Source: Physcia stellaris (taxonomy: Eukaryota; Ascomycota; Lecanoromycetes; Caliciales; Physciaceae). Taken from it: a DNA stretch of 64,000 bases. The stretch covers positions 248,001 through 312,000 of the forward strand of contig JABSSW010000012.1 of NCBI GenBank assembly GCA_018902385.1. Reading direction: 5' to 3'. The notes under the pieces were generated by a model, which was not told the DNA's origin, did not search any database, and saw only the letters and a program-made list of their open reading frames with translations. The translations under genes were made by a program, and so were the position numbers. This document shows positions 26,850 to 57,600 of this stretch, piece after piece; the stretch's first letter is position 1; each line of letters opens with the position of its first letter.

Positions 26850-28750
26850 ATAAACAATTAATTTGTTGAATTGTAGGAACTCGCAAACTCTCGCGCATGA
26901 ATATTCATGCGATATCCGAAATGTGAATCCTGCTAATTGCAAGCCGAAATTGCTTGTTTCGCGATATAATCGATTTGATGTTTCGAATTTGTTTGACGAA
27001 ATTCGACTCGCACTTTTGCAAATTTTGAACTCTGAATTTTTTACACGCGTTTTTTTCTTAGCATCGAAATTCTTTGAAATAATCAAAATCTTTTCGTATG
27101 CTTTGCAACAGAAATTTCTAGACTTATGTGTGTATGTTTTTTCTTAAAATTTGAAAAATCGTTGTAATCGCGATTTCCGCATCGATACTTTGAAATTCTG
27201 AAACTTGAAAAAACATTGTGATCGTGATTTTCGCACTCGAAATCATTCATTTCGATTTTAATCGGTTTGCGTTAAAAATTTGAAAATCATTTTCGTGAAT
27301 AATTCAAAAAAAACATAATTTGATGATTTCATTGCTTGTTGTTTTCAATATCGAAAATCTGATTTCGTACAATTCACAATTTTCGATCTGATGACTGACA
27401 ACTGATTGCGTGACAAAAAAATCGAATTCGAATTTTTTTTTTTAATTTTTTTTTTTATTTTCGAGTTTTCATACAGAAATCGAACGTTGCAATGATGTTA
27501 AACGAAATAAAATCGAATAATCGCGATTTTCGCAAATAATATATCGAATTTTCGAAATTTTTTCGATTTTTATTTTTATTTCATCATGATATTCAACGTT
27601 TCGTTAAATCGAACAGCAGTTTCTGAAAATGTTTTTGATACGATTGACTTTTCATGCGTCGTAAATTCTGAGCAATAAACAGCACAGAATTAATGACATG
27701 AATTCGTAATGTTGACATCATTGTCATACGATTTGATCGTGATTTGATCATTTTTTCGTGACGTAAAACATTGATCGCGTCATTATGATTGTTTTTTAGT
27801 CAATTGTTTCGTCAAAAAAAAATATTTACAAAACGTTGAACGCGTCATGATATTGAATATTTCTTTGTCAATTGTATCATCAAAAAATTGTATTCGTCGT
27901 TTTATTGACTGATTTTCAAATACGTTTTCGCTGTACGATTTGTTCGTTTCTTGATCATTTTTTTGTGATTATTTTTTGTCAATGTCGATGTTTTATAAAC
28001 TGATATGTGAATTTAACGAAATTTTTTTTTTTAATTTAAATTTTTCAAAAAACAAAACGATTTCTGAATACAATTATGTGATAAATTCATTTTTTGAATA
28101 TTTTGAATCGATAAAAAATTTGTTCTCGATATTTTGTTTGCATTCGTTTCGCAATTCGAATTTTATGTTATCAACAATATTGCGAACTTTCAAATTTAAT
28201 TTATTTTGAAATTTAAAAAATTTCGACAGAATTTCAAGCGATAATATTTTCAATGAATCATGCATGTTTTGCAAACAAACTATGACGAAAAAAATCATGA
28301 ATTTTTCTTATGTGCGAGATTTTTTGCGATTATTGTTTTTGAATTCACAATTCATGTTTTATGTTTTGACTGTTTATTATGATATTCATATAACGTTAAT
28401 TCATGTCAATGTTCGTTAAATTCAGACGATAATTTATCGTGTGATTTATAACGAAATGTTTGTTCGCAAATTTCTGATTCATGTTCGCATGTTTGAATTT
28501 TGTCGAAATGTTTTGCAACGACACTATATCTTGCAATCTATGACTTTGCTTAAATGTTAAAATATGACGAAATGTTTTGTAATTTTTTCGATTTACATGC
28601 TCAATCCTGACGAGATGTCTGCGACGATCATATATTTCGCAATTTCTGACCGTGCTTGCATGTTCGTGATTTGACTCTTTGTATGCTTCAGTCCGGACGA
28701 GATGTCTTGACAATTGATTTATATCTCGCTTCCGCTTTATCGTGCATAAG
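26850..28750. repeat. AT-rich block with repeat-directed mutation signature
   Basis: About 1.9 kb with long T and A runs and almost no CpC, CpT, GpG or ApG, while CpA, CpG and TpG persist, as in the element at 49.8-54.6 kb. No domain could be recognised in any frame, so the source repeat is unknown. The signature fades out to the right between 28500 and 28850, where degenerate tandem units become progressively more GC-rich. Confidence 0.7.
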
Positions 28751-29580: not shown

Positions 29581-31884
29581 CTAGCCTACTAAAATGCCCC
29601 CTTGCGATAGAACAGCGACAACAAATGGCAGACTTTCCGTAAGCACTATTAATGCCATACTATGTTAGCGGATAATATCTATATATTGTAAAACGTTATT
29701 CAACGGCGCGCAACGAAATCGGGACTTATGTGTTCAGAAAAGACAGATGAAAGAGATGATTACGTACGCAAGATATTTTAGTAATGATCACAGGGGAAAT
29801 CAGAAGCTACGTGTTTAGAAAGGAGAGGTGAGGGATTTCTGAGATGTTTTGTCTTCTGACGACAATGCAAGAACCTCGATCGAAATTTTCCCCATCCCAG
29901 TTTCACAGTGCCAAGATACCTATACACGAATTATCCCAGGGATGATAACAGATATCCGCCCACGAACTCGAACTTTGAAATTCTTTGTGGGGGACGTCGA
30001 TAGCGGTTGGTGAGAACCTGATCACAAAAATCCAACATATCTGCCCAAACCCTCTCAAGAAAGACGAAAAAAAAACCAACAAATATCACATCCGCCCAAT
30101 ACTAGTTTAGATCTTCACATCATATTTACTGACACGATAACGATCTCCTCTCCTTATTCTCTCAATCAAATTCCCTAATCATTTCGGCTATCATTCAGCG
30201 CACCCCCCCCCAAATTCCGGGACGCATACCACCGAGCCTAGAACACTACGCGGAGACTATCCGACCCCCATCTCCGGCCAAAGTTCGCTTTCGCCCTACA
30301 AAACGGACATTTCTACTGGAAATCCTCAATCACTTCAGTAGCATAACTTACTGTCCGAGATACTCGCAGAGACAAAGCCTTTGATGGGGTGTAAAACAAT
30401 GCATTTTCGATGTAGTTATGTTTCGTATTTCATATTAGTCTGTCTGTCTGCCTGCCAGCCTGCTTTCTGCACGAGGCCTCAGCTTCAAATCAGGTAGACT
30501 AAAATTCAAGATGTCGAAGCATGTACTGATTGGATGTTCTGGCGATGGCGGCGAGGCGCTTGGATTGGAATGGAATACTCGTCGGTACGTTCGTAAAGCA
30601 AAAGTCATCTATACCTCCAACCTCACACATCCCGCCCCGACCCGACTCCAAGCCCTGCAACCCCTGCAACCCTGCAACCCCTCCAACCCATCTCAAAACC
30701 CCCAAACCCATCTCAAAACCCTCTCTCCCCATCACCCCCCTCACCTCCTTTCATCCCCTACCCCCTCAAACCCCTAACCTTCAAGCTAAAGTCGATACAA
30801 ACTCCCCACCGCGCTCTTCCACGAATTGAGGAATAAGCTTTCATACTTCAAGGGCGGACCTATGATTATAGTGCCGACACTTCAGGCAAGGTTTCGAGGG
30901 GAGGGTTCGGCGTTGAGGGGATAGGGCTGAGGTATGCGTGTTTTGGCGGATTTGAGGTTTCGAGGGTTTGAGGGTTTGAGAGGTTTGAGGGGGTGGGAAG
31001 GTAGGGATGGTGAATGAGTGGGGAAAGGGGAGGTGGGGGAGGCTTGCTTTTCGGAGAAAGGAGAGGGAGGGGAAAGATGAATGGGACGGTGGATTTTTGG
31101 AGGTGGGCAGTGGATGTCGGGCGTTGGAGGACTCGAGATGTAGAGATGTCCAAAGCTGTATCGCAAAGTTGACAGGACCAGAGGGGGAAGGAGTCAACTA
31201 ATGCCGTTACGGGGATACTAATTTCCATTTCACGGAAACCATGCGGCGGTGCTTGCTTTTTTGCTATTTTGGAATTTACTTAGGCAAGGATAATCTTTTC
31301 TTCGTCATTTGTTTGGACTCTTCAAACGACTCTAGCTGTCAGCTACCACGATCGCCTGATTTCGAAGTCCGAAAACTGTCCCCCGATGTCCGGTAAGCTA
31401 CAACTCACAGATCTACTCTCGTAGGTAATGACTTCCCGTACCCGAGGATCATGGAGAGCGCATCAAATGTTCGCCGAAGCTTGTATTCTTCCTAAGCACA
31501 TCTTGATCAAGCTCTCCGGATACCTCCGTGTTTCTCCTTCTCTCATGTATTCATCCTCGTGCTCTCTCAGATGGACACCATGTAGAAATCATGCCCTGAC
31601 TGCACACCTGGACGAAGTGTCTACTACCAGGGCTCAAGAACAGCCGTCCCGCTCCTCAGCCTGCAGCAGCTTTTATTGTTGGCGGACCCTGCGTATAGGG
31701 CTAGCTGATAGGATAGAATGGTTTTGATGGTTGTACAGATAATTTGTGGCGCGAAGATATATTTTGGATGGCTTTGGTGCTGGATACAACAAGCATGTCT
31801 GATTCCTCGGTGCTGTAGGCTCTTTGGCATATCGAGTACCGTTTGTTGTTTCTGCGTGTACGTTCGTGCCGTATTGGGTCTTAG
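29581..31884. other. Gene-poor stretch with C-rich and G-rich tracts
   Basis: No gene supported. Plus-strand C-rich low-complexity sequence at about 30620-30780 (CCCTGCAACCCCTGCAACC) is followed by plus-strand G-rich sequence at about 30890-31110 (GAGGGTTTGAGGGTTTGAG). These tracts create long frames of Pro/Ser/His composition on both strands that I reject as genes. The second copy of the diverged direct repeat is at 30252-30299. Confidence 0.45.
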
Positions 31885-32428
31885 TGTGCTGAGTATGCTG
31901 AGTATGCTGAGTGTGCTGAGTGTGCTGAGTGTGCTGAGTGTGCTGAGTGTGCTGAGTGTGCTGAGTATGCTGGAATGGGTGAGAATGTCGAGGATGCTGA
32001 GGATGCTGAGGATGCTGAGGATGCTGAGGATGCTAAGGATACTAAGGATGCTAAGGATGCTGAGGATGCTAAGGATGTTGAGAATGCTGAGAATGCTGAG
32101 TATTTTGAATATGCTGAGTATGTTGAGTGTGCTGAGTGTGCTGAGTATGCTGAGTATGCTGAGTATGCTGAGTATGCTGAGTATGCTGAGTATGCTGAGT
32201 ATGCTGGGATGGGTGAGGATGTCGAGGATGCTGAGGATGCTGAGAATGCTGAGTATTTTGAATATGCTGAGTATGCTGAGTGTGCTGAGTATGCTGAGTG
32301 TGCTGAGTATGCTGAGTGTGCTGAGTGTGCTGAGTATGCTGGGATGGGTGAGGATGTCGAGGATGTTGAGGATGCTGAGTATGCTGGGGATGGTGGGGAT
32401 GTCGAGGATGCTGAGGATACTGAGTATG
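31885..32428. repeat. Minisatellite built on a 9-bp unit (TGCTGAGTA and variants)
   Basis: About 60 units of TGCTGAGNN (variants TGCTGAGTA, TGCTGAGTG, TGCTGAGGA, TGCTAAGGA). It also has higher-order structure: a block like GGGATGGGTGAGGATGTCGA occurs three times (about 31975, 32206, 32341) and GAGAATGCTGAGTATTTTGA twice (about 32086, 32242). Because 9 is a multiple of three, most reading frames stay open across it, which makes several spurious long ORFs on both strands. Confidence 0.9.
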
Positions 32429-35298
32429 CCGACTCGGAAAACATTCTGCATCCATATCACGGCACTGATCCCAAGAGTCAAGCGCCTCCTCTGCAAATCT
32501 TGACGATGACCTCGGCGAACAATCCATGGCCAATCAGCACGCTTGCCTCGACTTATCATTGTGCACGTTTCGATCCCGCTGTGCGCTACACGTCGATGTA
32601 GCAAACGACTACGAGGGTTTCGCATCGATTGGTCTCTGCTGCGCTCTGAAAGCGGAGTTGTTTTTGAGTCGTTGAACTTTGGTGGCTGGGGCAACCATTA
32701 CGAAGCCAAGGCCGGTCCATAGGTGGATATGACTCTGTTTTGATACGCTAGTGCAGACGCGGCTTCTTCGTGAGAAGATCTTTGAACGCGTCGCGATGGA
32801 GAATTGAACGATAGGGTGTGCTGAAAGGGCCTTGCGCAAGGGAGGGTGATTCGGGAAAGCCAGCCAAATAGGACTGCTGGGACGTCTTTGGCTCTCTATG
32901 CTTGTAATCAGCATTGGACTGCAAATGGAGATACAGACATTTCAAGCCTTCAAGGCAGTTTTCTCCAGTTTCCTAGTTGACGATGAGGTCTAAACCCAGA
33001 CAGCAAAGTGCTCTGATTGAGGGAAGCTAGGCCACCTAGAGCAACGAGGGAGATCCCAGCTTCTACGGGTGACGTTGTGACTCAGCCAGCCTTGAGGCTG
33101 ACAATCGTGACATGGCTTGGCAGCATGAGCTTCGAAGCTGCCAAAGATATTCCTCCGAAGTACGTACTAGACTCTGGCTCCAGCACGGGTAACTCGTGTC
33201 GATCTCGGAGATGCTTGGCAACGGTCCGAACCAGTGACGAGGGTTGTAAAGCAAGGCATCTGCAATGAAAAAGTCCCCCGTGCGCATCGTTGCCGAAACC
33301 AAGCGTACCTGTGCGGGAAGTCATTTCAACGGTGACGTACGACGCGACTGAATCGGGATCATCCAGTCCAGTGAACGATGCTGATCACCCCGGACACTTT
33401 TTCACATAGGATCGCCTTCTGGCTAGAGCAAGGGGCGGATTAGCAGGGCTCTGTGACGGGTTTGCAGATCAGTTGCTGGGTTATTCTGATCGCGGGGCCA
33501 GTCTTGTAAACAGCTCGTACAATCGACGATCGTCTCCAGCCTGGTCGAATTCAGGTCCCTTCTTCTTAGGAGACCATAGGCCTATCTCTACACGCGCGCA
33601 GATGTCAGCGGTGTTTCACAGCATTAGGCTAGCAGCTCTGAGCTCACGATTGATGCTTTGCTTAGAAACGAGGTGGCTGAATGTTTGGCAGGGCTTGTAG
33701 GGGGATGGAATCGCGCTACATGCTCGAAACCGAAGTTCCGAGCCAGTAGTGCGGTGATTACCCCGGATGCATCGACCGTTGTCACCTGTCAGCCTTCACT
33801 CTGCATTACCAGCTGAGAGTCTCGCTGTCGCTCTTTTCGGTTAGCTTTACTCGCCAGACGTACCTGTTGTCATGTGCTGGTTTCATGTCTGGGAAAGTAT
33901 TAATTAAAAAGTCCGAGCGTCTTGCCTAGACCCCGAAGCCCAAAATCATCCGAACCCACTGTTACATCATCCGCGGTAATGAGGTGACTCTTGTCTTCAT
34001 TGTATCCTCACTTAATGTCGATAATGATCCGTGGTCGAACATTGCAGTCTGCAAGACATTCGTGATAGTGGATGTGTTACTAGAATAATCGTGGGAACCC
34101 CAGTTTGGCTTTCCAGCCTTCAACCTAATTCCCAATAATTTCTAATCCTAGTTCATGGCTTACGCCCCATTATCTAGGGAGAAAGAGGGATAGCATCTTT
34201 TACCCATGTCGTCTTGGCGCAGGACACCCTCGCTGTCGCTAGGAAATGATCGACTGCCGGGGGCTAGCCCGCCGCTTTAGTGAGAAGGAAATTATGTCTC
34301 AAATTTTGTCAATCTTCAGCCATGCATCGCTGGCCCAAAGATCAATGAAAAGAGAGCTTAGATAGCATCTGCAATCATCTTAGGGATAGAGAGGGGCGAT
34401 AGTGGCCCCAAGGTTATTGATGTCAACCTTGTTGTTTCGAGCATTGAGACCTACCGGCGACCCCTTCAAATGTGTTTGGATCAATCTCCGGACGTAGATA
34501 GAGCATCACCACGTGAGGGTGTTCCTCCTAAGCTGACATTGTTCCACCAGACGCCCGCAGTAAAGGATTGTCTGTAATCCTAAGATCTCATAGGTGCGCC
34601 AAAGGCTCTGGATGTAGGTGAATTGTCCCAATTTGATGCTTGGTGCTAGTGCGTGTTGACGAGCAGAGACTTGCATTGTCAATGTCTGCCATAATGGTAT
34701 GAGAGGAAAAGATTGGTGGCGTCGCACGGCGCTGCAAGCTCCACCTTTGAGCCGTGTTCTTGGTTGAGTGAGAGTCGCTGAGCTTGCAGTAGCCAAGGCC
34801 ACAGCATCGCTGCTGGTCAATTGTCTCAACAAGTTTGGCCGGTCATGCCTGTGTTGGCCACCTTTGACCTCTGAGCTGCTTTGCCAACGCATTTCCTCCG
34901 TGCAGGTAGACACTTAATTGAGATAAGGAGGCAGGGAGCTATTATCCGATGGTGGTTTGCATTGCACATTGACAGGACGGCGAAGCGAGGAGACACGCAC
35001 AGAAACGGTGCCAGTGATGTTGTTTACCCCTATTTTTGGATGTGCGAAAATCTCCTCTCCAGCAGTCCCCCCTGTTGAGACCATACCTCACAGCCAGTCG
35101 AAACACTATAAGAATAGCATACCTTTTCCGCTTTACAAGTAGAAAGAACCCTTGCCCTCTACATTGTTAAAGAGAAAGCAATCAGAGACGTACCTTGCTA
35201 CTCATAAACCTACACCATCATCATTCAAAAGTGGCGTTGTCCGACGCAATCATATCCATCACCCAAACCACGAGCGTGTTCAACGGAAAGAAAGCAAG
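32429..35298. other. Intergenic, no gene supported
   Basis: Short frames only. The minus strand at 33063-33324 gives some protein-like stretches in two frames (IADALLYNPRHWF, and LPVLEPESSTYFGGISLAA) that may be the remains of a gene, but I cannot name it. Confidence 0.35.
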
Positions 35299-46625: not shown

Positions 46626-48449
46626 CTAGACAGCAGCTGCGAGCCCTCTGAGGGTGGCAAGGCTTTCTTCTAGAATGCCCAGCGAGTCGAATATGTCCTC
46701 TGTGTCACTGTCCACTTGACTTGTGGCCGCGTGTAGACAAGTCATAACAATTTGGCTATAAGCAAACCCCATTCTATGGCAAAGGTCTGCGTGGATGGTG
46801 CCAAGGCCTGTCTCTCGTATCAAACTCTGCTTCTCACCGACCATGAAGTAGTATTCCGTGTCGTTCTCAGGAACGAGAACGGAGGAGGAAATGTCCTCTA
46901 ATGGGTTGCTCGCTTTGCGCCTCAAGTAGTGTAGAAGGACTGTCTGCAAAGGCGCCCAGAAACCCAATTCGAGCAGGACGCAGCCAAGACTATACAGATC
47001 GAAGGACTTGTTGAACGGGACTCTACCTCGACCGACTGTCAGAGGGTGACGATACATGTCTGACGTCCGCTGCGCTGATGGAGCTTCTGTAGTTTCCAAG
47101 GGATTATCCGCCCTTGCATATTCGTAGCCGCCAAGGTACGCAGGTGGCAGACTATCACCGATGTTCCAATCGGCTGACTTGGTCTTAAAGAACAATAAAT
47201 TATCGGGACGGATACACTTATGCATCCAGCCAGATGTGTGCAACTGAAGCATCGTCTCTGTCAGATTGACAGCGATATGAATTCTGCTATTTAGACTTGG
47301 TCGCTGGGATGACTGATTAAGAAGGTCTTGTAAAGTTCTCATCGAAAAGCCCGAAGACATCGTAGCTGGAGGTTGGAAGAGATAAGCATATCTTCCTGAT
47401 TTGGCAGCTTTGAGATACCCCAAGCAAGAGAGTGAATGGAAGGATGGATCTTCCATTTCAGCAAGCAGTGCGGCTACATGAGCGATCCTATACTTCAGCT
47501 TAGACTCCAACGAGCGTTCGACATTCTTCCACTCAACAATGATAGTTTGGCTGTCATAATGCGCAATTTCCCGCGAGATCGCAGAAGACGCATGGCCTTC
47601 GCAGCCCGATAGCATTTCCGGGTCGCGACGGAGTTTGTTCAGTCGTTCCACTGGCAAGTTCTTCCGAGTACTGGCTTTGACTGGTGTTACTAAAGTTGTC
47701 TGAGAGGATGAGGCAACAGATCGAGGACTGGTCGACCCTACTAAGTCTAACAGAAGACCCCGGTGCTTCAGACGAGCGGACGCTGCTATGGCTGCGTCCA
47801 CTGTATTTAACGGCCCAGCCATAACATCTAGTAGAGTTTTGTCAGAAGTTTGGGATACGATGGATCGCATTATAGCATTGTCTTCCGAGGATTTCAGCCT
47901 TTGATCCACATTGTGGAGAAGGCCAAAAAGTCGTTTATTGAAGTAACGTATGTCCTTTAGCAAAAGCCTCAATTTTTCTTCATCGACCGACGCCCATTTC
48001 AGTTTCTTCCACGGGTTGTTCCTACGCGAGTACACTTTTGCGGTGTCATTGATAAATTGAGGTCTTGCCTTCTCCAAAATTCGACCGAATAGGCGTTTGG
48101 GTTCCAGAATACCGCGGATCTCTTCATCGGTTATTGTCACATCCAGTCCATAATCGTTCTTTAGCTTCGCAGCATCAGTGAGAAGCTGTTCAAGATTCGA
48201 AAGGGTGCTCTGAACAATTGGTGGGTAAGGCACGTTGAGCTCGGGAGGCTCTTTAAAGAGACCCACCGTCGTCGCCCACTCATTCAGGCAATAGTGTTCC
48301 CACTCCAGTTGACATCGAAGGACATCACCTCTGCTTCCTAGCGCCTGCGCAGCTGAGAGAAGAACGAATCCTTTGACACAGCCATCGAAAAGTTGAATGC
48401 TCAAGGATATAAAACTGACGATGGAAGCAGCCTCGCCAACACCAGCCAT
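46626..48449 (-). CDS. HeLo-domain / pseudokinase protein
   Basis: Single-exon, intact, 607 residues from the ATG at 48449. A longer in-frame extension to 48731 is rejected because the HeLo domain starts exactly at MAGVGEAASIVSFISLSIQL, where family members start. Residues 1-210: HeLo domain (LFDGCVKGFVLL; DVLRCQLEWEHYCLNEW; KLKWASVDEEKLRLLLKDI; a helix near 165-185). Residues about 300-605: kinase-like fold (VEWKNVE for the VAIK lysine; SGWMHKCIRPDNLLFF at the catalytic loop; KSFDLYSLGCVLLELG). The HRD aspartate is Cys412 and no DFG is seen, so it should be catalytically dead. HeLo domains in HET-S and MLKL insert into membranes to kill cells; a similar role is inferred, not shown. The gene diverges from the kinase-ankyrin gene. 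Confidence 0.85.
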   Translation of the reverse strand: MAGVGEAASIVSFISLSIQLFDGCVKGFVLLSAAQALGSRGDVLRCQLEWEHYCLNEWATTVGLFKEPPELNVPYPPIVQSTLSNLEQLLTDAAKLKNDYGLDVTITDEEIRGILEPKRLFGRILEKARPQFINDTAKVYSRRNNPWKKLKWASVDEEKLRLLLKDIRYFNKRLFGLLHNVDQRLKSSEDNAIMRSIVSQTSDKTLLDVMAGPLNTVDAAIAASARLKHRGLLLDLVGSTSPRSVASSSQTTLVTPVKASTRKNLPVERLNKLRRDPEMLSGCEGHASSAISREIAHYDSQTIIVEWKNVERSLESKLKYRIAHVAALLAEMEDPSFHSLSCLGYLKAAKSGRYAYLFQPPATMSSGFSMRTLQDLLNQSSQRPSLNSRIHIAVNLTETMLQLHTSGWMHKCIRPDNLLFFKTKSADWNIGDSLPPAYLGGYEYARADNPLETTEAPSAQRTSDMYRHPLTVGRGRVPFNKSFDLYSLGCVLLELGFWAPLQTVLLHYLRRKASNPLEDISSSVLVPENDTEYYFMVGEKQSLIRETGLGTIHADLCHRMGFAYSQIVMTCLHAATSQVDSDTEDIFDSLGILEESLATLRGLAAAV

Positions 48450-49020
48450 CCACGCGACCAAATTCGGTCTAGCGCTTTCGGCATTTGCAATAAAACCCTC
48501 ACCAACAGGATTCGAAGAAGAAACCCTTCGAGATGCACAACTTTCTGCCGCACTTTCTTCTTGTAGATACACACACAAAGCAATTGCAGGGAAAAGACGG
48601 AGACTACGACTGTAATGCCTTGAGTAAGACCGTGCGAGAGGGAGAAAGTCTGCTCCGGTGATCGCGATGATCGAATGCCTCATGCTCAATATCTGCACGA
48701 GGCAGCCACTCACATTGAGACGCATCACCACTGCATACTCCTTATTTCTCGGAACGGTTTCGCCTTAGAAGTGCATATTATGGCCAACCCTGATCAGACC
48801 TAATCACCACCCCGTCCAAAGACCCTATAGATAAGCTGGTTGCAGTCAGGATTTGGCTTGGCATGCACTTCCCAAGGAAATGCACTTCACAGGTTTTATG
48901 GAGGTAGCCTGGGTTGGCGTGGGGCCTCATCATCGCGCTCGGCTTAGGCTCAGCCTTATCCACATATTGTACAGCTGGTCCACTCTCCCATGCCCATTCA
49001 GCGGTCAGTTCCCGGATAAG
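48450..49020. promoter_or_regulatory. Shared divergent promoter region
   Basis: The 571 bp between the start of the HeLo-pseudokinase (minus) and that of the kinase-ankyrin gene (plus). A shared promoter could allow co-expression. I see no specific factor sites that I can name. Confidence 0.4.
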
Positions 49021-49754
49021 ATGGATTATGTACGCAGCTTTGCAAGCCAAATCGTGGAGGACTCACGAAGACTCGAGGTCCTTTGTCGGGTAACTGAGGC
49101 TGGAACGTCTACCAACAAGCCATCGGTCATACCAGAATCAACATTCGATGCCATATCCAAAGCACTAGAGACAGAAGTCCAAAGGAAAGAATGGACTGCG
49201 CGACCAAGAACATATTTCATCTTGTGGCAGATCAGACGCATCGATGCTATGGAGGCTTTCATTGGCCAGGGTCTTAACGATACCTCGTTGCCCTACAAGG
49301 GCAGGAGCTCGTTGCCCGCAGCTCTAAACATTGGCGAAGCCAACCAATTTCTACAATGGCAAGATAGAGTTGTCAGTGACATCATTCACTTGGAGCAAGG
49401 CAAGCATGTCCGCATCAACGACGGCGATACCCTCTTCGAAGTTGCAAGGAAAAAGTTAGGCGTTGGCAGCCAGGGGTAAGACAACAATTCATACATTAAT
49501 CCTCCTGTAACTTCATGGGGCCTCATGAGGCTATTCGTCGGGTAATCGTGTAGGCGTACGTGAAGATCAATACCTCTAGTAATGTATGGGATAGCAGCGG
49601 CATATGTAATAACATTGGTCTTTTTCGTATGCTGACTAAAACTCCAGAGAGACGGTTGTGGACAAGGTGATAAGCAAGGCCACCGGAAAAGTCTATGCAC
49701 GGAAGCGCATCAATCGTAAACGAAGATGGAATCATGACAAAACACACACAGAAA
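49021..49754 (+). pseudogene. 5' part of a Ser/Thr kinase-ankyrin gene, interrupted by a retroelement
   Basis: Exon 1 is 49021-49475 and exon 2 starts at 49648 after a 172-nt intron (GTAAGACAAC...CTGACTAAAACTCCAG, phase 2). The start MDYVRSFASQIVEDSRRLEVL opens a family-specific N-terminal region (about 150 residues: TYFILWQIRRIDAMEAFI, then HLEQGKHVRINDGDTLFEVA). Splicing makes the glycine-rich loop GVGSQGETVVDKV, then the beta-3 strand VYARKRI with the VAIK-type lysine. The coding sequence stops about 12 residues later at the border of the inserted element (about 49755). It continues beyond the element at 54651. Host coding sequence itself shows no stops or frame changes here. Confidence 0.8.
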
Positions 49755-49885
49755 GTCGTCCAGGCTAAACATGGGTGCTAATGCAGAAATGACGAAATGA
49801 AAAAAACTTGAAAAAATCGATCTTTTAGTTAAATAAAAAATCATTGTTTTTTTCATTTCATTTCTCATTTTTCGTTTTTTTTTTT
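49755..49885. repeat. Split direct repeat A1 of the retroelement
   Basis: About 131 bp, matching A2 (54263-54394), ending in a T run. A1 keeps more G and C, including CATGGGTGCTAATGCAGAAA, than A2, so mutation is weaker at the outer edge of the element. Confidence 0.8.
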
Positions 49886-52800
49886 GCAAATATTTGCAAA
49901 AGTCAATTGTAAAAATTTTTACATCAATTTTTGATGTAACATATCTCAATTTTTCGATTTTCGTACATTTTTTGATGTAATATTTCGTTCGACATAATTA
50001 AAATTCGATTTCATTGTTTTTTCGTCGTCGCAATATGAACATCAAATTCAATTTCGTTTCAAACAAAAACAATGTCGTTGTCATCAAAAAAATCAATGAC
50101 AACGATGTATTCAAATTCAAACGAATTGTTTTCAAACGTGTCACATTCGAAATAAATAATCGTATTCGAATTGACAAAAATACACGTTTTCGTTTCATTT
50201 CGAAACGTTCGATTTCGCGAACGTTCGTCAAATTTCGTCGCAAAATTTTTTTTTCGTTTGAACATTTCGAAAATCAAATCGAAAAATCAAACGATTTCGA
50301 CATTCACGACGATTTCGAATTTATCGACGTAAACGACAACGACGCATTCGATTCATTTCAAATTCGACGATCACGTTCGAAAACGACAAAAATTCAAAAT
50401 TTGAAAAAATATCATGTTGATTTTCGTCGTCAATTGAAAATCAAAAAAATGAAAAAACAATTGAATATTAATTTTATTCAACGTACGTTGTTTTTTTTTT
50501 TTCACATTTTTTCAATTTTTTGTTCGTCGTGTTTTTTGCGTTCGAATTTCAAAATTTTTATTTTCAAAACGTGTTTTTTTTTTACGATTTGATCAATTCA
50601 TATTTTGATTTATCGAATTTTTGAATTTTCATCGAACACGTTGCGTTCGCGACGAAAATTCGTACGAATTTTTTGTTCAACAACAATTTCGAATATTCGA
50701 AAATTGAAAGAAAATTTTCAACGTGTCGTTGCGTATATTCAAAAACGTGTACAACGACACGTTGAATTTCAAAAATTTTTCAAAATTCTTTTTTTTTTGA
50801 ACGATTTTCAGCGTTTTCGTCGATGCACGTGCGAAAATTTTCAAAAATTTTCACATTTTGTTGACGTTTTTGAAAATGTATTGCAATATAATATTTGATT
50901 TTGCGCATTCGAACATTCGATACGAATTGAATTACGTTATGAATCAATATCGTTTTCGCATTTTGAAAACATACATTTACAAAACGTGATCATCGATTCT
51001 GATTTGACATGAAAAAAATTTAATTCGAATTATACGCATTGATCAAAATATCGCAATCAATTGAATTATTAAACATGATATTATCGAATGAATGTTCAAA
51101 AATATCGTCGTCATCGAATTCAATCAAAAATCGACGAATTCGCAATCGTTTTTCATTTCACGCACGATCAAAAAAAAATTCGATCGTTTGACAATCAATA
51201 ACGAAATTTGTCACGCGTTCAATAACAACAATCGTTGCGAATTTGAATTTTGCAAATGAAAACATGTTTGCATCAAATGTCAACAATCAAATCATAACAA
51301 TTTCGAATGTTTCGAAATCAAAATCGTCAAATGATTGATCGATGCGTTTTCTTTTGATTTTTTCTTTTTCATCTTTTTTTTTTTTTATTTTCGTAGAATG
51401 ATCATGTCGATTTCGATCGAGTGATCGTCAAAAAAACTTTCATATGACGTCGTTTTCGACAATGTTTTCAAGCTCGAAATCAAAATGTCATTGAAAATCA
51501 AAACATGAAGATTTTATTTACTAAAACATTTCGATCAGCATTTTGTTTCGAAATTGCTTGACATTATTAAGCGAGACGTCAACGTCGAATATATCGAAAA
51601 TAAGAAATTTTTTGTTTCTATTAATCATCGTTCGATCAACGAAATTTTCGATATATTCACTGTCGATTTCAACAAACAATTGATTGTTCAACGAGTGTTT
51701 AGAATGCTCTTTTTTCTTTTTTTTTTCAAATTACGTTTGCTCGTTTTTAAATTTGATTTTCAAACACGACGACGAATGAAAACGTATTCACGATTTTTCG
51801 TATTTCAAAAATAATTCAATCAATGAAAACATCATCGAAAATGCAAAAATTTTGAAATACGTCACGTTCGATGAAATCGTTGCAATATTCATATTTCAAA
51901 AACGAAATGTCGTTATGTTCAAAAAAAATTTCGTCAATGCATTCAAACACATTTCGATGATTTTTTTAAATCGTTGATTATTCGATTTCGAATGAATGAA
52001 TGTGTATTATATGAAATTGTTTTTATCGTTCGATTTACGTATTGTTTTTTTTTATTCGATTTATTTGTTAAAACGTTGCATTGAATTCTGATCGAAATTT
52101 ACGAGTTTCGCATAGTTTTTCACTATTTAGACGATTTTCTGATTATCATGAAATTTTACACGAATTCGAAATCGTTCAAAAGAAAATGACAAAATATTTG
52201 TCAAATTCTCGATCTCGAAACGAATCAGAAAAAAAAAAAATCTGATACGAGACTCGAATTTTTAAACATCGAATTCGATAACGAAATCATGAAAATCAAA
52301 TTTTTTTCAACAAAATTGACGAAAACAATGAAATTTGTCAACGAAATTTTCATCAAAAAGTTTTTCACGTATCGTCAAATCGATTTTTTCGTGAATTTTT
52401 TGTCATTTTGCACGAAAATCGTCATTTTTGAACGTTTTTTTTTTCATTTCATTTTACATCGCTCGAAATCGAATTCGAAACGTCAACAAATTTTGCAAAA
52501 TCATCGAAACAATGCGTTTGAATTTGCAATGATGACAAACGTTTTTATTTCAATGAAACGACATCAAAATTTTGCGAACGATTTCGTTTAAATTTTCGAA
52601 TCACATTTGAACGAATGTTTCAAACAATTGAAATATCGAAAATTTTTGATTTCGTAATCGTCAAAACGAATTTTTCGAAAAATTTAATTTACGATATTCA
52701 ATTCGTTATCGTAATCGCATGTTCGATATTCAAATCAAAAAAATGCGAATCGTGTTGAAAATTTTGCGTCAATAATTATTTCATTTCGAAAATAACAAAA

Positions 52801-54100
52801 TCATCATTCATTGCGATAATCAAATCGTTTGTTTTGAATTCATCAAAAACACGATACACGATTCGACAATGACGTCGTTTCGAAACGTTGTCATGTTGTT
52901 TGTTTTTCACGATATCATCGTTGAAATGAAATGATTAAATTCGAAATTCAATCATTTGATTGATTTGTTTTCGCGAAATGAACACGATAAAATCGTTGAC
53001 GAATATTCACAATTGCAAATTCGTCATGATCAATTCGCGAATTAAATTTCGCATTCAACGACGACGTTTCAAAATATTGATATATTCAAATTTCGTTGAA
53101 CAAAATAACAACACGTTTTTTGTGATGAAATTTGATTTCGAATATTCGCAAAATTTACAATTTCGCAATCAAATCATACGTGAAATTTTGCGCATTTGAT
53201 GATTTTCAAACATTTTTTTTCATCATTTTCGTTATCGATGATTGAATGAATTCGTTGAACATAAAACGATTCAAATCGAAAATTATCAAAATTTACATCA
53301 CGACATTACGTTTTGCTTGCGTGAATCGAAAATATTTCGATTTCAACGTTTTCAACGAATTTTTGTTGCAACGCGAAATCGATGAAATCAAACGTATGTA
53401 TGAAAAAAACGAAAAACGTGAAAAAAAAATTATTATTCGTGATATTTTGTTAAATATTTTGCAATTTTTCGATATTCGCATCAAAAAAAATGCAACGTTG
53501 CACGTCGCATTTTGTTTGACTTTTGCAAACTTTTTGCGTATAAATAAATTTATTTGATCAAATGTTGATCGTATTTTCGAATTTAACAAATAAAACGTTA
53601 TTCGTTTTTCGATAATTTTTTTCGATAATCATTTCATTTTAACGTTTTTTGTTTCGAAAATCGATTCATTTCGCAAAAAAATTTCGATATTCATTGCGAT
53701 CATCGACGATGCAATTTGTACGATAATCTCATTACGCAATTTTTTCGAGCGTTTTTCTGTTTCGACATTCTTTTTTCTATTTCAGATCGATCAGTCAAAA
53801 TTTTTCAATGCAAATTACGTCATCATCGTGTTACGTAAAACGATTATAAATTTGAATTTCGAAAACAATTATTCAAATCATTTTTTTCGACGAGACGTTG
53901 CAATTGAGATTCGCAATGCGAACGTTTTTGACGATTTGATCAAACTTCTAAAAAAATGAAAATTCGAAACGTTCTTGTTGTATATCGAAAGCAACAAAAA
54001 ATACATTTTTCAAATATCGCGACATCATCAAAACGATTGATTTGCTTTTTTTTCGTTTTTTTGACGACGACGTCGTTTCTCGACGTGTTTTGAAAATTGT

Positions 54101-54263
54101 GAAAAAATAATTAAATTTTGAAAATTGCTTTGTTGAATCACTTTGTTCAACGAAATCGATTTTGCAAAATCATTTTGTTTTGCAAAATCATTGTTTACAA
54201 ATCGATCATGTTCAAAACATCAAAAATTTTGTACATAACAATGAAAAAAATACGTAACATTAA
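54101..54263. repeat. Split direct repeat B1 of the retroelement
   Basis: About 163 bp aligning without gap to B2 (54488-54650). B1 is contiguous with A2. In the 156 best-aligned bases I count 22 differences, all transitions. Confidence 0.8.
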
Positions 54264-54394
54264 TTCGTTCAAATTAAACATGAATGTTAATGCAAAAATG
54301 ACGAAATAAAAAAAATTTGAAAAAATCGATTTTTTAATTAAATAAAAAATCATTGTTTTTTTCATTTCATTTTTCATTTTTCGTTTTTTTTTTT
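54263..54394. repeat. Split direct repeat A2 of the retroelement
   Basis: Second copy of A, directly after B1 and separated from B2 by about 95 bp of T-rich sequence. Strongly mutated relative to A1. Confidence 0.8.
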
Positions 54395-54487
54395 GTTCGT
54401 TCATTCACTTTTTGTTTTTGATTTTTTTCGACGTTTTCATTTTTTTCGAAAATCTTTTTTTCGTTTCAAAATTCAATCGCAAAAACA

Positions 54488-54650
54488 AAAAAAATAGCTA
54501 GATTTTGAAAGTTGCTCTGTTGAATCATTTTGCTCAGCGGAATCGATTTTGCAAAGTCATTTTGTTTTGCAAAGTCATTGTTTACAGATCGACCATGCCC
54601 AAAACATCAAGGATTTTGTACATAGCAATGAAAAAAGTACGCAGCATTAG
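54488..54650. repeat. Split direct repeat B2 of the retroelement (right end)
   Basis: Right-hand B copy, less mutated than B1, ending GCATTAG directly before the host sequence CTATATGAAAATGAAG. It ends the element. Confidence 0.8.
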
Positions 54651-57600
54651 CTATATGAAAATGAAGTGAAGACCCTTAAAAAGGTTGCTGATCACGAACA
54701 TCTCATTAAAGTTTGCGGTACTTATACCGACAAAAAGTACCTGGTTATGCTTCTGCAACCGGTCGCAGATGAGAATCTGAAGCAGTATATGAGCCGAGCC
54801 CCCCACCTTTCTGTGGAAGAGCAAACCTACTTTCGAAGCTACTTTGGCTGCCTGGCTCATACAATCAAGTTTCTCCACGGGATCGAGATGCTCCATAAAG
54901 ATATCAAGCCGGAGAACGTGCTTCTGAAAGACGGTCAACTAATCCTGACAGATTTTGGCACAGCCTTCGATTGGTCCAAGACTGGCCAAAGCATGACACA
55001 AAGTAATGCTAGCGATTGGAGGACTCCACGGTATCAGAGTCCAGAGGCTGTGCATGGAGAATTCCGCCGTGCTTCAGATATATGGTCATTGGGGGTCGTA
55101 TTCCTTGAAATGGTAACTTTTCTCCGTGGCAAAACTCTAGCGGAGATGGATACCTTCCTGAACAGACATGGTCAAGGAGTTACCAGCATACACAACAATA
55201 TCGAGGGTGCAATGAATTGGTTCGGTCAATTGCAAGCATACGACTCTGGCTTTGGTTCTCCGGTCGACAACGAGCCGTTGACCTGGATTAAATCCATGCT
55301 GAACCGAGTGCAGTCCAATAGACTGACAGCTGAAGAGCTTGTGGATAAAATTGTAGGCTTCAATGACGGGATGTTTTGTGGTCGATGTTGTATGGATGTA
55401 GACTCAAGCTTTGATGACGGTTTTGAAAGTGATGATGATATGCTGTCTGATATATCAGAGTATTACGAAGTGGAGACCACGATTCCCAGTGGTAACCGGC
55501 AAGAAGATCCCATGAGCTCGAACAATCAGTCCCTCGATAGAGCACCGCCACCGCCAACTTTCAACAGCGAAAGCAAAGCAGTCAGCGGGGTACCTCTAAA
55601 TGTCAAGATATTGTCCGACTCGACAAACCTTTTGGTGGACTCCCAACAGATCGCCGACACTGTCATGTCGGTCCCGCTATATGGGGAAATCATGTCAACC
55701 ACCGATTTGCCTGATGAGCCAGCAGTATCTATCTTTTCATATCGACGAGAGACACGGCAGAACTCATCGAAATCCTTAAGATCGCCAAAAGAGGCTTCCA
55801 TCCCAGGCTCCCAAAAGGCTACTCCAAAACCAAAATCGAAGACTTTTCGTGAGCGTGAGACATTCGTACAGTGGCTGGCGAGTTTGCCTGAGAAATTTGC
55901 CCCAGCGCCAGCGCATCGCCGATCAAGCTCTTCAAGGCGTTCTGTTAGTCATGGACTCCGTGGTCCGACCGTTGAAACACAACGCATCAAGCATTTTCTG
56001 TCATCTCTGCCCGAGGAGATCGAAGATTTTGATGACCCTCCTGATGGTACTGATGACTACGGGGAGGTATATCACCGCTCCAACCAGCCAATCGTAGTCG
56101 GACCATGCCAGTCACCTCCAACACAATCAGACGTTCAAACAGCCAGGAAGACTTTCAATCTTCATCACATCTACTCCACGAAGATGATGATGATGACCAA
56201 TTTGCTGATGTAGGAAGGTCGAAACTTATTCATTATGCGAGCGATGGTGATCTAAACCTGGCCCTCGCCATTTCCAAGGAAGCATTGCAAGTAGCGAAGA
56301 TGGACCTAAAAGAATTCGCAGCGAACGTTCAGATACCAGATAGCAAGCGTGAGTCACAGGCTATTAATGTTGCACCTGCAATTCATCATCAGTTCAGTGC
56401 TCCCTCAGAAGAATTAGATCCACGAGATCAGGCCAGGGCACCGCCAGCCCGACCGAAATTTTCAGTTTGGGAATCTTTCAATCTGGGAATCCAGGACCCT
56501 GCTTCTATCGACCCTTCTCTAGCGAACACCGGAGATCTTCGTCCCTCGACAGCAAACGACCAGCGGACCGAGAATGTTCATGAAGGTACAGCGTCTGCCG
56601 GGGGTGCCCCCAATTCGAAAGTATCTGTAGCTACGAAAGCCTCGAAGACCTCTCGTCTAGGGGACTTCATCAAGAAAGCTCCAGCTCGCCGTCGTCGAAA
56701 GTTTGAATCTGCTACCATCATCATGGGCAGGATTCTGGACGACAAATCTTCAGAGGCACCAACGTCTCTTATGTCAGTAAATACACGCGCTGTTGTCTCC
56801 GCTGGGCTACCCGTCCTCCGTTGGAACGATAAAGCTTATGGTTATCTACCAAAGTTTGTTGCGAGTGGGAAGGTCGGTGCTGTTAGAGAGTGTTTGAAAG
56901 CTGGCTGCAATCCAGGTACTGAGCAGAAGCCCCGCTGGGCGCCCGTTTACAATGCAGTCAGGGGTGCGAGTGATAGGCACCTTAAATGTCTTAGGGAGCT
57001 AGTACATTATGGCGCTGACGTTAATGTAAAGCGATCAAACAATGGCAGGACGTCTCTTCACTACGCGGTCGAGTCAAAACCTTGGTCAGGTTATTCATCT
57101 GTCATCTATACGCTTTTGGCCGCTGGTGCGGATCCGAACATCAGAGACTGGGCCAATGACCTACCTCTCTTGATGCTCTTGGTTGGGAACGGTCCATTGT
57201 CGCAAGCCAAGCGAGACGCTCTCTTCCTGCTACTTGCCCCGAACTTTGCCACCAACCTCAATGTCAGCGTTGCCGGAACTCTTGATAATCCACTGCATTT
57301 GGCTATACGCCGAAAAGATCCCTACACTGTGGACGCGATTTTGGAGAAACTGAAAAGCCGTGGCACTGCATCACAGCTCATGGACGCACACAATGGTAGC
57401 GGTTTCACGCCCTTACTGCTTGCTTTGACTATCTTCCAACTAGGGGAAGACTCCGACGAAGAGCTTCAGATCATCGAGTACCTCCTCAAGCATGGCGCCA
57501 ATGCCAACGACGCGGACGCTACCCAAGGGAAGACTCCGCTGCACCTAATCATTGGTTCCAGCAAGAACACCATTGCGCTGGAGCTCCTTTGCAGACACTC

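Follow-up and report, generated by a model that had tools for sequence, protein, structure and literature searches.

The ascomycete Physcia stellaris carries repeats in which C has been replaced by T on both strands, preferentially where another C or a T follows. We describe this pattern starting from a window of 64,000 nucleotides (the whole stretch of DNA that was analysed; positions 248,001 to 312,000 of contig JABSSW010000012.1, assembly GCA_018902385.1, called C12 below), which holds a 4.9-kb element and a second, shorter repeat with the same depletion. The preference for C before C or T, with CpC converted more often than CpT and both far above CpA and CpG, is established in three repeat families, and a process of the repeat-induced point mutation (RIP) type is the probable reading of this signature. 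A first-pass annotation, made from the letters of the window, had named C before C or T as the target; direct comparison in three families, the composition of reverse transcriptase (RT) loci and the types of stop codon all agree with it.

In the stretch 50041–50400 of the element CC, CT, AG and GG are absent and TA occurs 7 times, and our recount is identical to that of the first-pass annotation. When the same 360 bases were shuffled 20,000 times, the four missing dinucleotides together averaged 57 and never numbered fewer than 34. TpG had been called frequent there, which is not the case: it occurs 8 times, 0.57 of expectation, and is normal only across 49900–54500 (240 occurrences, 1.07 of expectation). 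This longer interval contains neither CC nor GG, 41 CT and 27 AG, a sum of 68, where 500 shuffles gave 641 on average. The longest run without CC or GG extends over 4,764 bp and the longest without any of the four over 853 bp; after removal of the two mutated blocks, the corresponding runs in the window are 212 bp and 60 bp. The window outside the blocks has, per kb, 117 CC+GG, 132 CT+AG, 139 CA+TG and 105 CpG (doubled). An origin of the pattern in plain base composition or in faulty assembly was considered and ruled out. The mutated copies are indeed AT-rich (24–34% GC in 30 loci of the element), but same-base shuffles never come near the observed depletion, and the same pattern is met in different families, across many contigs and inside reading frames, so that this explanation is hardly credible.

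Further copies were sought in the assembly of 43,974,083 bases in 147 contigs. With 49700–54700 as the query, the 4.9-kb element gave at least 73 matching stretches when 39 of 131 candidates were scored, and 30 loci were cut out, hence at least 30 copies; one group is 89–93% identical to the window copy and a second group about 74–78%. The matched part of all 30 loci contains 0–13 CC+GG and 2–53 CT+AG per kb, together with 98–132 CA+TG and 122–153 doubled CpG. The second repeat (26.9–28.6 kb of the window) gave at least 118 matching stretches (40 of 451 candidates scored), and 15 copies were cut out. CC and GG are missing altogether from 11 of these 15 copies and from 8 of the 30 copies of the element. 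A bias confined to one block, which the first-pass annotation had held to speak against its proposal, is thereby excluded. Among six further RT loci, L052, L054, L055 and L056 have 0–4 CC+GG per kb, L053 is depleted in part (38 per kb), and L057, with 130 per kb, is normal. A mutated transposase locus, L059, has 1 CC+GG and 50 CT+AG per kb; its divergence from L058, a transposase locus with an open frame, is too great for an alignment.

In order to observe the conversion directly, we followed each C of a less mutated reference on either strand and classed it by the base that comes next. L037, a copy of the second repeat that is far less mutated than the others, served as one reference. From L037 to L036 we counted changes at 91 of 95 CpC, 196 of 231 CpT, 19 of 260 CpA and 3 of 202 CpG, so that 88% of the CpC and CpT sites (287/326) are converted; over 1,898 columns there are 309 C-to-T changes, taking both strands, versus 20 T-to-C changes and 14 transversions. 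The copy L035 gave 78/91 CpC, 176/230 CpT, 20/257 CpA and 2/201 CpG. Summed over 14 copies of the second repeat the figures are 874/960, 1606/2049, 310/2104 and 158/1675 in the same order, where those for CpA and CpG include ordinary divergence because 12 of the 14 copies are only 66–73% identical to L037, conversions counted in. An RT repeat with an unmutated reference behaves alike: L050 to L056 shows 247/270 CpC, 233/302 CpT, 23/272 CpA and 20/278 CpG, and over 2,198 columns there are 523 C-to-T changes versus 19 T-to-C changes and 28 transversions; L051 to L056 shows 251/273, 226/297, 18/261 and 28/278. The unmutated pair L050/L051, used as a negative control, has no excess at CpC or CpT (39 CpC, 36 CpT, 31 CpA and 19 CpG changes, 37 transversions).

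The element of the window itself offers two internal comparisons. Its B repeats differ at 21 of 161 gapless columns; 14 of 15 CpT, 5 of 5 CpC, 1 of 27 CpA and 0 of 8 CpG are changed in the mutated copy, and one change runs in the opposite direction. The first-pass annotation had reported 22 differences in 156 bases, 21 of them at CpC or CpT: the dominance of these contexts stands (19 of 21), while its totals are replaced by ours. The A repeats show 14 differences, 12 of the CpC/CpT type, one of the CpA type and one transversion. The A repeats are also partly palindromic (49780–49870 and 54294–54391), with an inverted similarity of 73–76% within and between them.

The base in front of the target has little influence, much as the first-pass annotation had stated with its ‘whatever precedes it’: no strong 5′ effect before C or T was seen in the second repeat or the RT family. 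Before CC in the second repeat the conversions are 42/44 for ACC, 21/24 for CCC, 53/61 for GCC and 53/57 for TCC. TCA (26/204) and TCG (2/172) are little changed there; TCA is higher than other CpA in this repeat (26/204 versus 13/313) but not in the RT family (7/100 versus 16/172). The trinucleotide tables of the two families hence lack the dependence on the 5′ neighbour that marks deamination of the APOBEC/AID type. A clustering of conversions on a single strand appeared in only 1 of 7 comparisons (L035, correlation 0.21 versus 0.01 after shuffling), and we make no claim of processivity.

CpA is a weak secondary target and is not spared. The first-pass annotation had both CpA and CpG spared; per site both are low in comparison to CpC and CpT, but for CpA the word is too strong. 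In L021/L024 (95% identical) changes at CpA (44/501) are clearly above those at CpG (9/553). Among the copies of the element, 406 of 435 possible pairs gave a hit of at least 800 columns, and the 183 pairs with at least 88% identity, which are not independent, differ at 758 of 913 CpC, 13,731 of 16,000 CpT, 12,969 of 67,670 CpA and 6,677 of 75,163 CpG sites. The raw numbers for CpA and CpT are about equal because saturated copies retain few CpC and CpT. CpA-to-TpA as the main change had been named beforehand as an outcome that would overturn the proposal; per available site it was not seen in any of the comparisons against a less mutated copy.

Stop codons provide a further record of the context. 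Mutation of C before a pyrimidine Y (CpY) makes a stop only from TGG, which becomes TGA, whereas mutation at CpA predicts TAA and TAG. In a simulation on seven open frames CpY mutation gave 100% TGA, CpA mutation 62% TAG and 38% TAA, and CpG mutation 64% TAA, 25% TAG and 11% TGA; CpY mutation followed by 8% CpA mutation gave 74% TGA, 23% TAA and 3% TAG. The internal stops observed in matches to transposon domains were 250 TGA, 33 TAA and 3 TAG for RVT_1 (stops in 140 of 150 matches; 150 of 527 candidates scored), 401 TGA, 101 TAA and 3 TAG for RVT_2 (133 of 137 matches; 150 of 165 candidates scored) and, by hand count, 44 TGA, 3 TAA and no TAG for DDE_1 (9 of 10 matches). TGA thus accounts for 695 of 838 internal stops in the 297 matches listed for the three domains, although these are not independent events since copies within a family share ancestry. 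At 85% conversion the simulated density of stops was 4.8 per kb for CpY, all TGA, versus 15.4 per kb for CpA, and mutated copies therefore keep longer reading frames. If true, systems of the CpY type leave reading frames open to an extent about threefold that under RIP of the CpA type.

The standard RIP indices do not register the pattern. The window element has a TpA/ApT of 0.33 and a (CpA+TpG)/(ApC+GpT) of 1.35. In 45 copies from two families the two indices are 0.32–0.56 and 1.18–1.91, and none of the 45 passes either threshold as quoted in PMC4188875. The first-pass annotation had expected CpC and CpT near zero and TpA depleted in all AT-rich blocks; CC+GG of 0–13 per kb in 30 of 30 loci of the element and the low TpA/ApT in the 45 copies are in line with this. 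Such repeats would be scored as free of RIP.

We then considered which enzymes might write the mutations. A search of the genome for C5-methyltransferases returned four matches, which we read as three genes (L001, L002 and L003/L004). L002 matches PDB entry 9bap, listed as DNA (cytosine-5-)-methyltransferase and presumably a DIM-2, with an E value of 2e-181; judged by this similarity, L002 is a DIM-2 homologue. L001 and L003/L004 are 36% identical in their aligned parts and are alike also N-terminal of the catalytic domain; both contain PPCQ and have MEET or LEQT at the site of ENV in other enzymes. The first-pass annotation had advised a look at methyltransferases of the RID and DIM-2 types, and one DIM-2 homologue and two RID-like candidate genes were seen. 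The RID-like candidates lie at C6:791557-792528 and C5:498855-499792, the DIM-2-like gene at C3:340323-341498. Furthermore, the genome contains a Pre-SET domain and an alpha-box mating-type domain, the latter in an open frame of 345 aa. The chromo-shadow domain of HP1 gave no match in a genome search whose controls were silent too. Matches of the cytidine/dCMP-deaminase type number 8, and this family was also matched in 12 of 14 control genomes; the best such match (C64:178666-179121) has 4 TGA inside, which may be introns or indicate a mutated copy.

Taken together, we consider it likely that the blocks of the window are transposable or other repeats under RIP-type hypermutation that is directed at CpY and written by a methyltransferase, with a RID-like enzyme a better candidate than DIM-2. 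Such a process would turn C into T on both strands where a pyrimidine follows, CpC more than CpT; it may be triggered by repetition and be active in the sexual phase as in RIP. A C5-cytosine methyltransferase with a preference for a 3′ pyrimidine would mark or deaminate the target, and either RID-like gene would be a likelier writer than the DIM-2 homologue. More specifically, a RID-class paralogue (or DIM-2) may have switched its 3′ recognition to pyrimidines, giving RIP with a roughly reversed order of contexts; we hold the chances of this to be about even. The dense C:G-to-T:A change on both strands with few other changes, as in L037 to L036 and L050 to L056, is what RIP produces. Within the 64-kb window both mutated blocks are repeats and the remainder is normal, and the limits of the mutated zone were profiled at the ends of six full-length copies of the element: L005 and L007 have near-normal flanks, and the density of target dinucleotides drops to about zero within the outermost 100–200 bp of the repeat.

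Several observations weigh against this reading. Four of the six profiled copies have depleted flanks, L006 and L010 on one side and L008 and L009 on both. The RT copies L050 and L051 are 95% identical over about 3.3 kb and yet unmutated, as is the RT locus L057, and the dependence on repeats is drawn from where the mutations lie. (L050, at C5:1165001-1168500, and L051, at C12:59001-62500, have long open frames in which the mutation pattern leaves no trace; the other RT-family stretches listed are 69–82% identical to L050, with 40 of 251 candidates scored.) CpA is a genuine second target: 19% of CpA sites differ among similar copies of the element, CpA accounts for 43 of the 56 transitions that separate L018 from L027, both of them saturated, and in L043, with L037 as reference, up to 24/85 CpA are converted. 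CpG is not always the lowest class (28/278 versus 18/261 for CpA in L051 to L056), and the RT family shows a mild 5′ difference (ACT 47/69 versus CCT 75/86). Finally, L001 and L003/L004 are only putatively RID-like, judged by their motifs.

Other explanations share part of this evidence. An APOBEC/AID-type cytidine deaminase or ultraviolet damage at dipyrimidines would also yield C-to-T changes, ultraviolet light favours dipyrimidines, and the deaminase-type matches in the genome would offer an enzyme. However, APOBEC/AID deaminases read the 5′ neighbour and ultraviolet light hits TpC too, whereas TCA and TCG are little changed here and CpC and CpT are converted largely irrespective of the base in front; the restriction to repeats would also go unexplained, and we regard this source as very improbable. 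The first-pass annotation had left the choice between an unusual methyltransferase and a deaminase. It is the 3′ side that sets the specificity, which points to a methyltransferase in preference to a deaminase or ultraviolet damage. Slow decay, in which repeats are methylated at CpC and CpT over long periods and 5-methylcytosine deaminates spontaneously, would be compatible with the many copies that have lost every CC and GG and with a degree of saturation that varies among copies. It accounts poorly for the conversion of 287/326 CpC and CpT sites from L037 to L036 next to 14 transversions and 3/202 CpG, an excess far above that of methylcytosine decay, and for mutation limits that lie inside the repeat in L005 and L007; we think it improbable. 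The same RIP-type outcome might instead be reached via a heterochromatin-guided DIM-2 branch, the context being an exaggerated DIM-2 preference. According to a 2026 review, DIM-2 of Neurospora crassa prefers CpT, and older heterochromatic repeats need DIM-2 for RIP (PMC13297926); a DIM-2 homologue is present in the genome and remains a real candidate, and the depleted flanks in four of six copies could come from spreading. The near-normal flanks of L005 and L007 speak against this branch, as does the top rank of CpC among the converted contexts, which a CpT preference alone would not lead one to expect; we rate this branch as rather unlikely.

The features of the window are collected in the table below. 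No Pfam match above cut-offs was obtained in the twelve open pieces scanned, those from copies of the element included, and both window elements are unclassified. Open frames that look kinase-like by eye flank the element on the left (46626–48731) and on the right (54666–56213); the listed start of the right frame lies 15 bp past the right end of the element, so its 5′ part may have been cut by insertion. Elsewhere in the window, about 61 tandem copies of the 9-bp unit AGTATGCTG occupy 31883–32429.

Table. Repeats and depleted stretches in the 64,000-nt window (window positions)
Feature	Position	Strand	Basis
4.9-kb repeat copy with CpC/CpT-depleted block	49753..54651	.	other copies align to about 49752–54652; composition of 30 copies
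Stretch without CC or GG, 4,764 bp	49775..54538	.	dinucleotide run search
Test stretch of the first-pass annotation, CC=CT=AG=GG=0	50041..50400	.	counts and shuffles
Longest run without CC, CT, AG or GG, 853 bp	52463..53315	.	run search
B repeat, heavily mutated, internal to the element	54102..54262	+	B-repeat alignment
B repeat, less mutated, right edge of the element; reference for the mutation pattern within the window	54489..54649	+	B-repeat alignment
A repeat, left end of the element	49753..49886	+	matches 54262–54395
A repeat, right copy, more mutated than the left	54262..54395	+	A-repeat alignment
Second CpC/CpT-depleted repeat	26900..28600	.	at least 118 matching stretches in the genome; composition; direct comparison

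The comparison with known systems draws on the available parts of the papers cited. In N. crassa the order of RIP contexts is CpA>CpT>CpG>CpC (PMC5496416). The process described here resembles it in the dense two-strand C-to-T change in repeats with few other changes and in a genome with a DIM-2 homologue and putative RID-like genes, but CpC and CpT lead here while CpA and CpG are low: CpA is converted at 7–9% versus 91–96% for CpC (L037 to L036, L050 to L056), and the Neurospora-type precedence of CpA is absent. RIP in Trichoderma reesei, where mutation is directed by duplication, likewise changes C to T; CpA is about equal to CpG, followed by CpT (the sign between CpG and CpT is illegible in our copy), and CpC is last (PMC5496416), whereas it is first here. 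In Magnaporthe oryzae, Botrytis cinerea and Sclerotinia sclerotiorum CpT is a main or secondary RIP target, tabulated alongside CpA, and this CpT signature has been tied to a RID-class motif, with one or two RID-class genes per genome (PMC4352252); the term ‘CpC’ has no occurrence in the text available of that paper. The target CpT is common to these three species and to our repeats, but in the latter CpC leads and CpA plays a minor part, so the pairing of CpT with CpA is not found. Microbotryum and other basidiomycetes mutate repeats at CpG (TpCpG), which has been linked to a DNMT1-class enzyme (PMC4352252). Context-specific C-to-T change in repeats is shared with them, but CpG, first in the basidiomycete type, is hardly changed here (3/202 and 20/278).

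CpT is dominant in some or all repeat families of Colletotrichum truncatum (PMC6180176) and Anisogramma anomala (PMC10998396). The families of C. truncatum lie mostly above the RIP thresholds of the CpA/TpA indices (PMC6180176), unlike all 45 copies here. In A. anomala CpA is dominant as well, and its genome has two rid homologues and dim-2 (PMC10998396); two RID-like genes alone therefore do not explain the pattern in P. stellaris. RIPCAL found CpA to be preferred in most RIP fungi and CpT more rarely (PMC2621366), and CpT alone is not new, since CpT-to-TpT was dominant in alignment-based controls of PMC7882544. As for CpC, double mutations from CpC to TpT occur beside classical CpA RIP in Monilinia (PMC8959702), and in a table of SNP spacing for Rhizoctonia solani AG8, uncorrected for the number of sites, CpC is the densest class and CpT the sparsest genome-wide, although the emphasis of the authors is on CpG (PMC4014442). 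The accessible portions of the literature searched contained no description of repeat mutation in which CpC and CpT take the lead.

A survey of 1,239 genomes published in 2025 concluded that RIP-like defences share a preference for CpA (PMC12543289). This preference underlies the usual RIP indices, and repeats in which CpC and CpT come first and TpA is low break the shared rule. If true, such systems evade TpA-based indices and may be common but overlooked. A purified enzyme of the same methyltransferase class had no activity in vitro (PMC13297926); a natural switch of specificity within this class would be of value here, and P. stellaris offers three candidate genes. The comparison suggests a variant of RIP in which the enzyme that reads the DNA differs in specificity, with a context preference roughly opposite to that of Neurospora.

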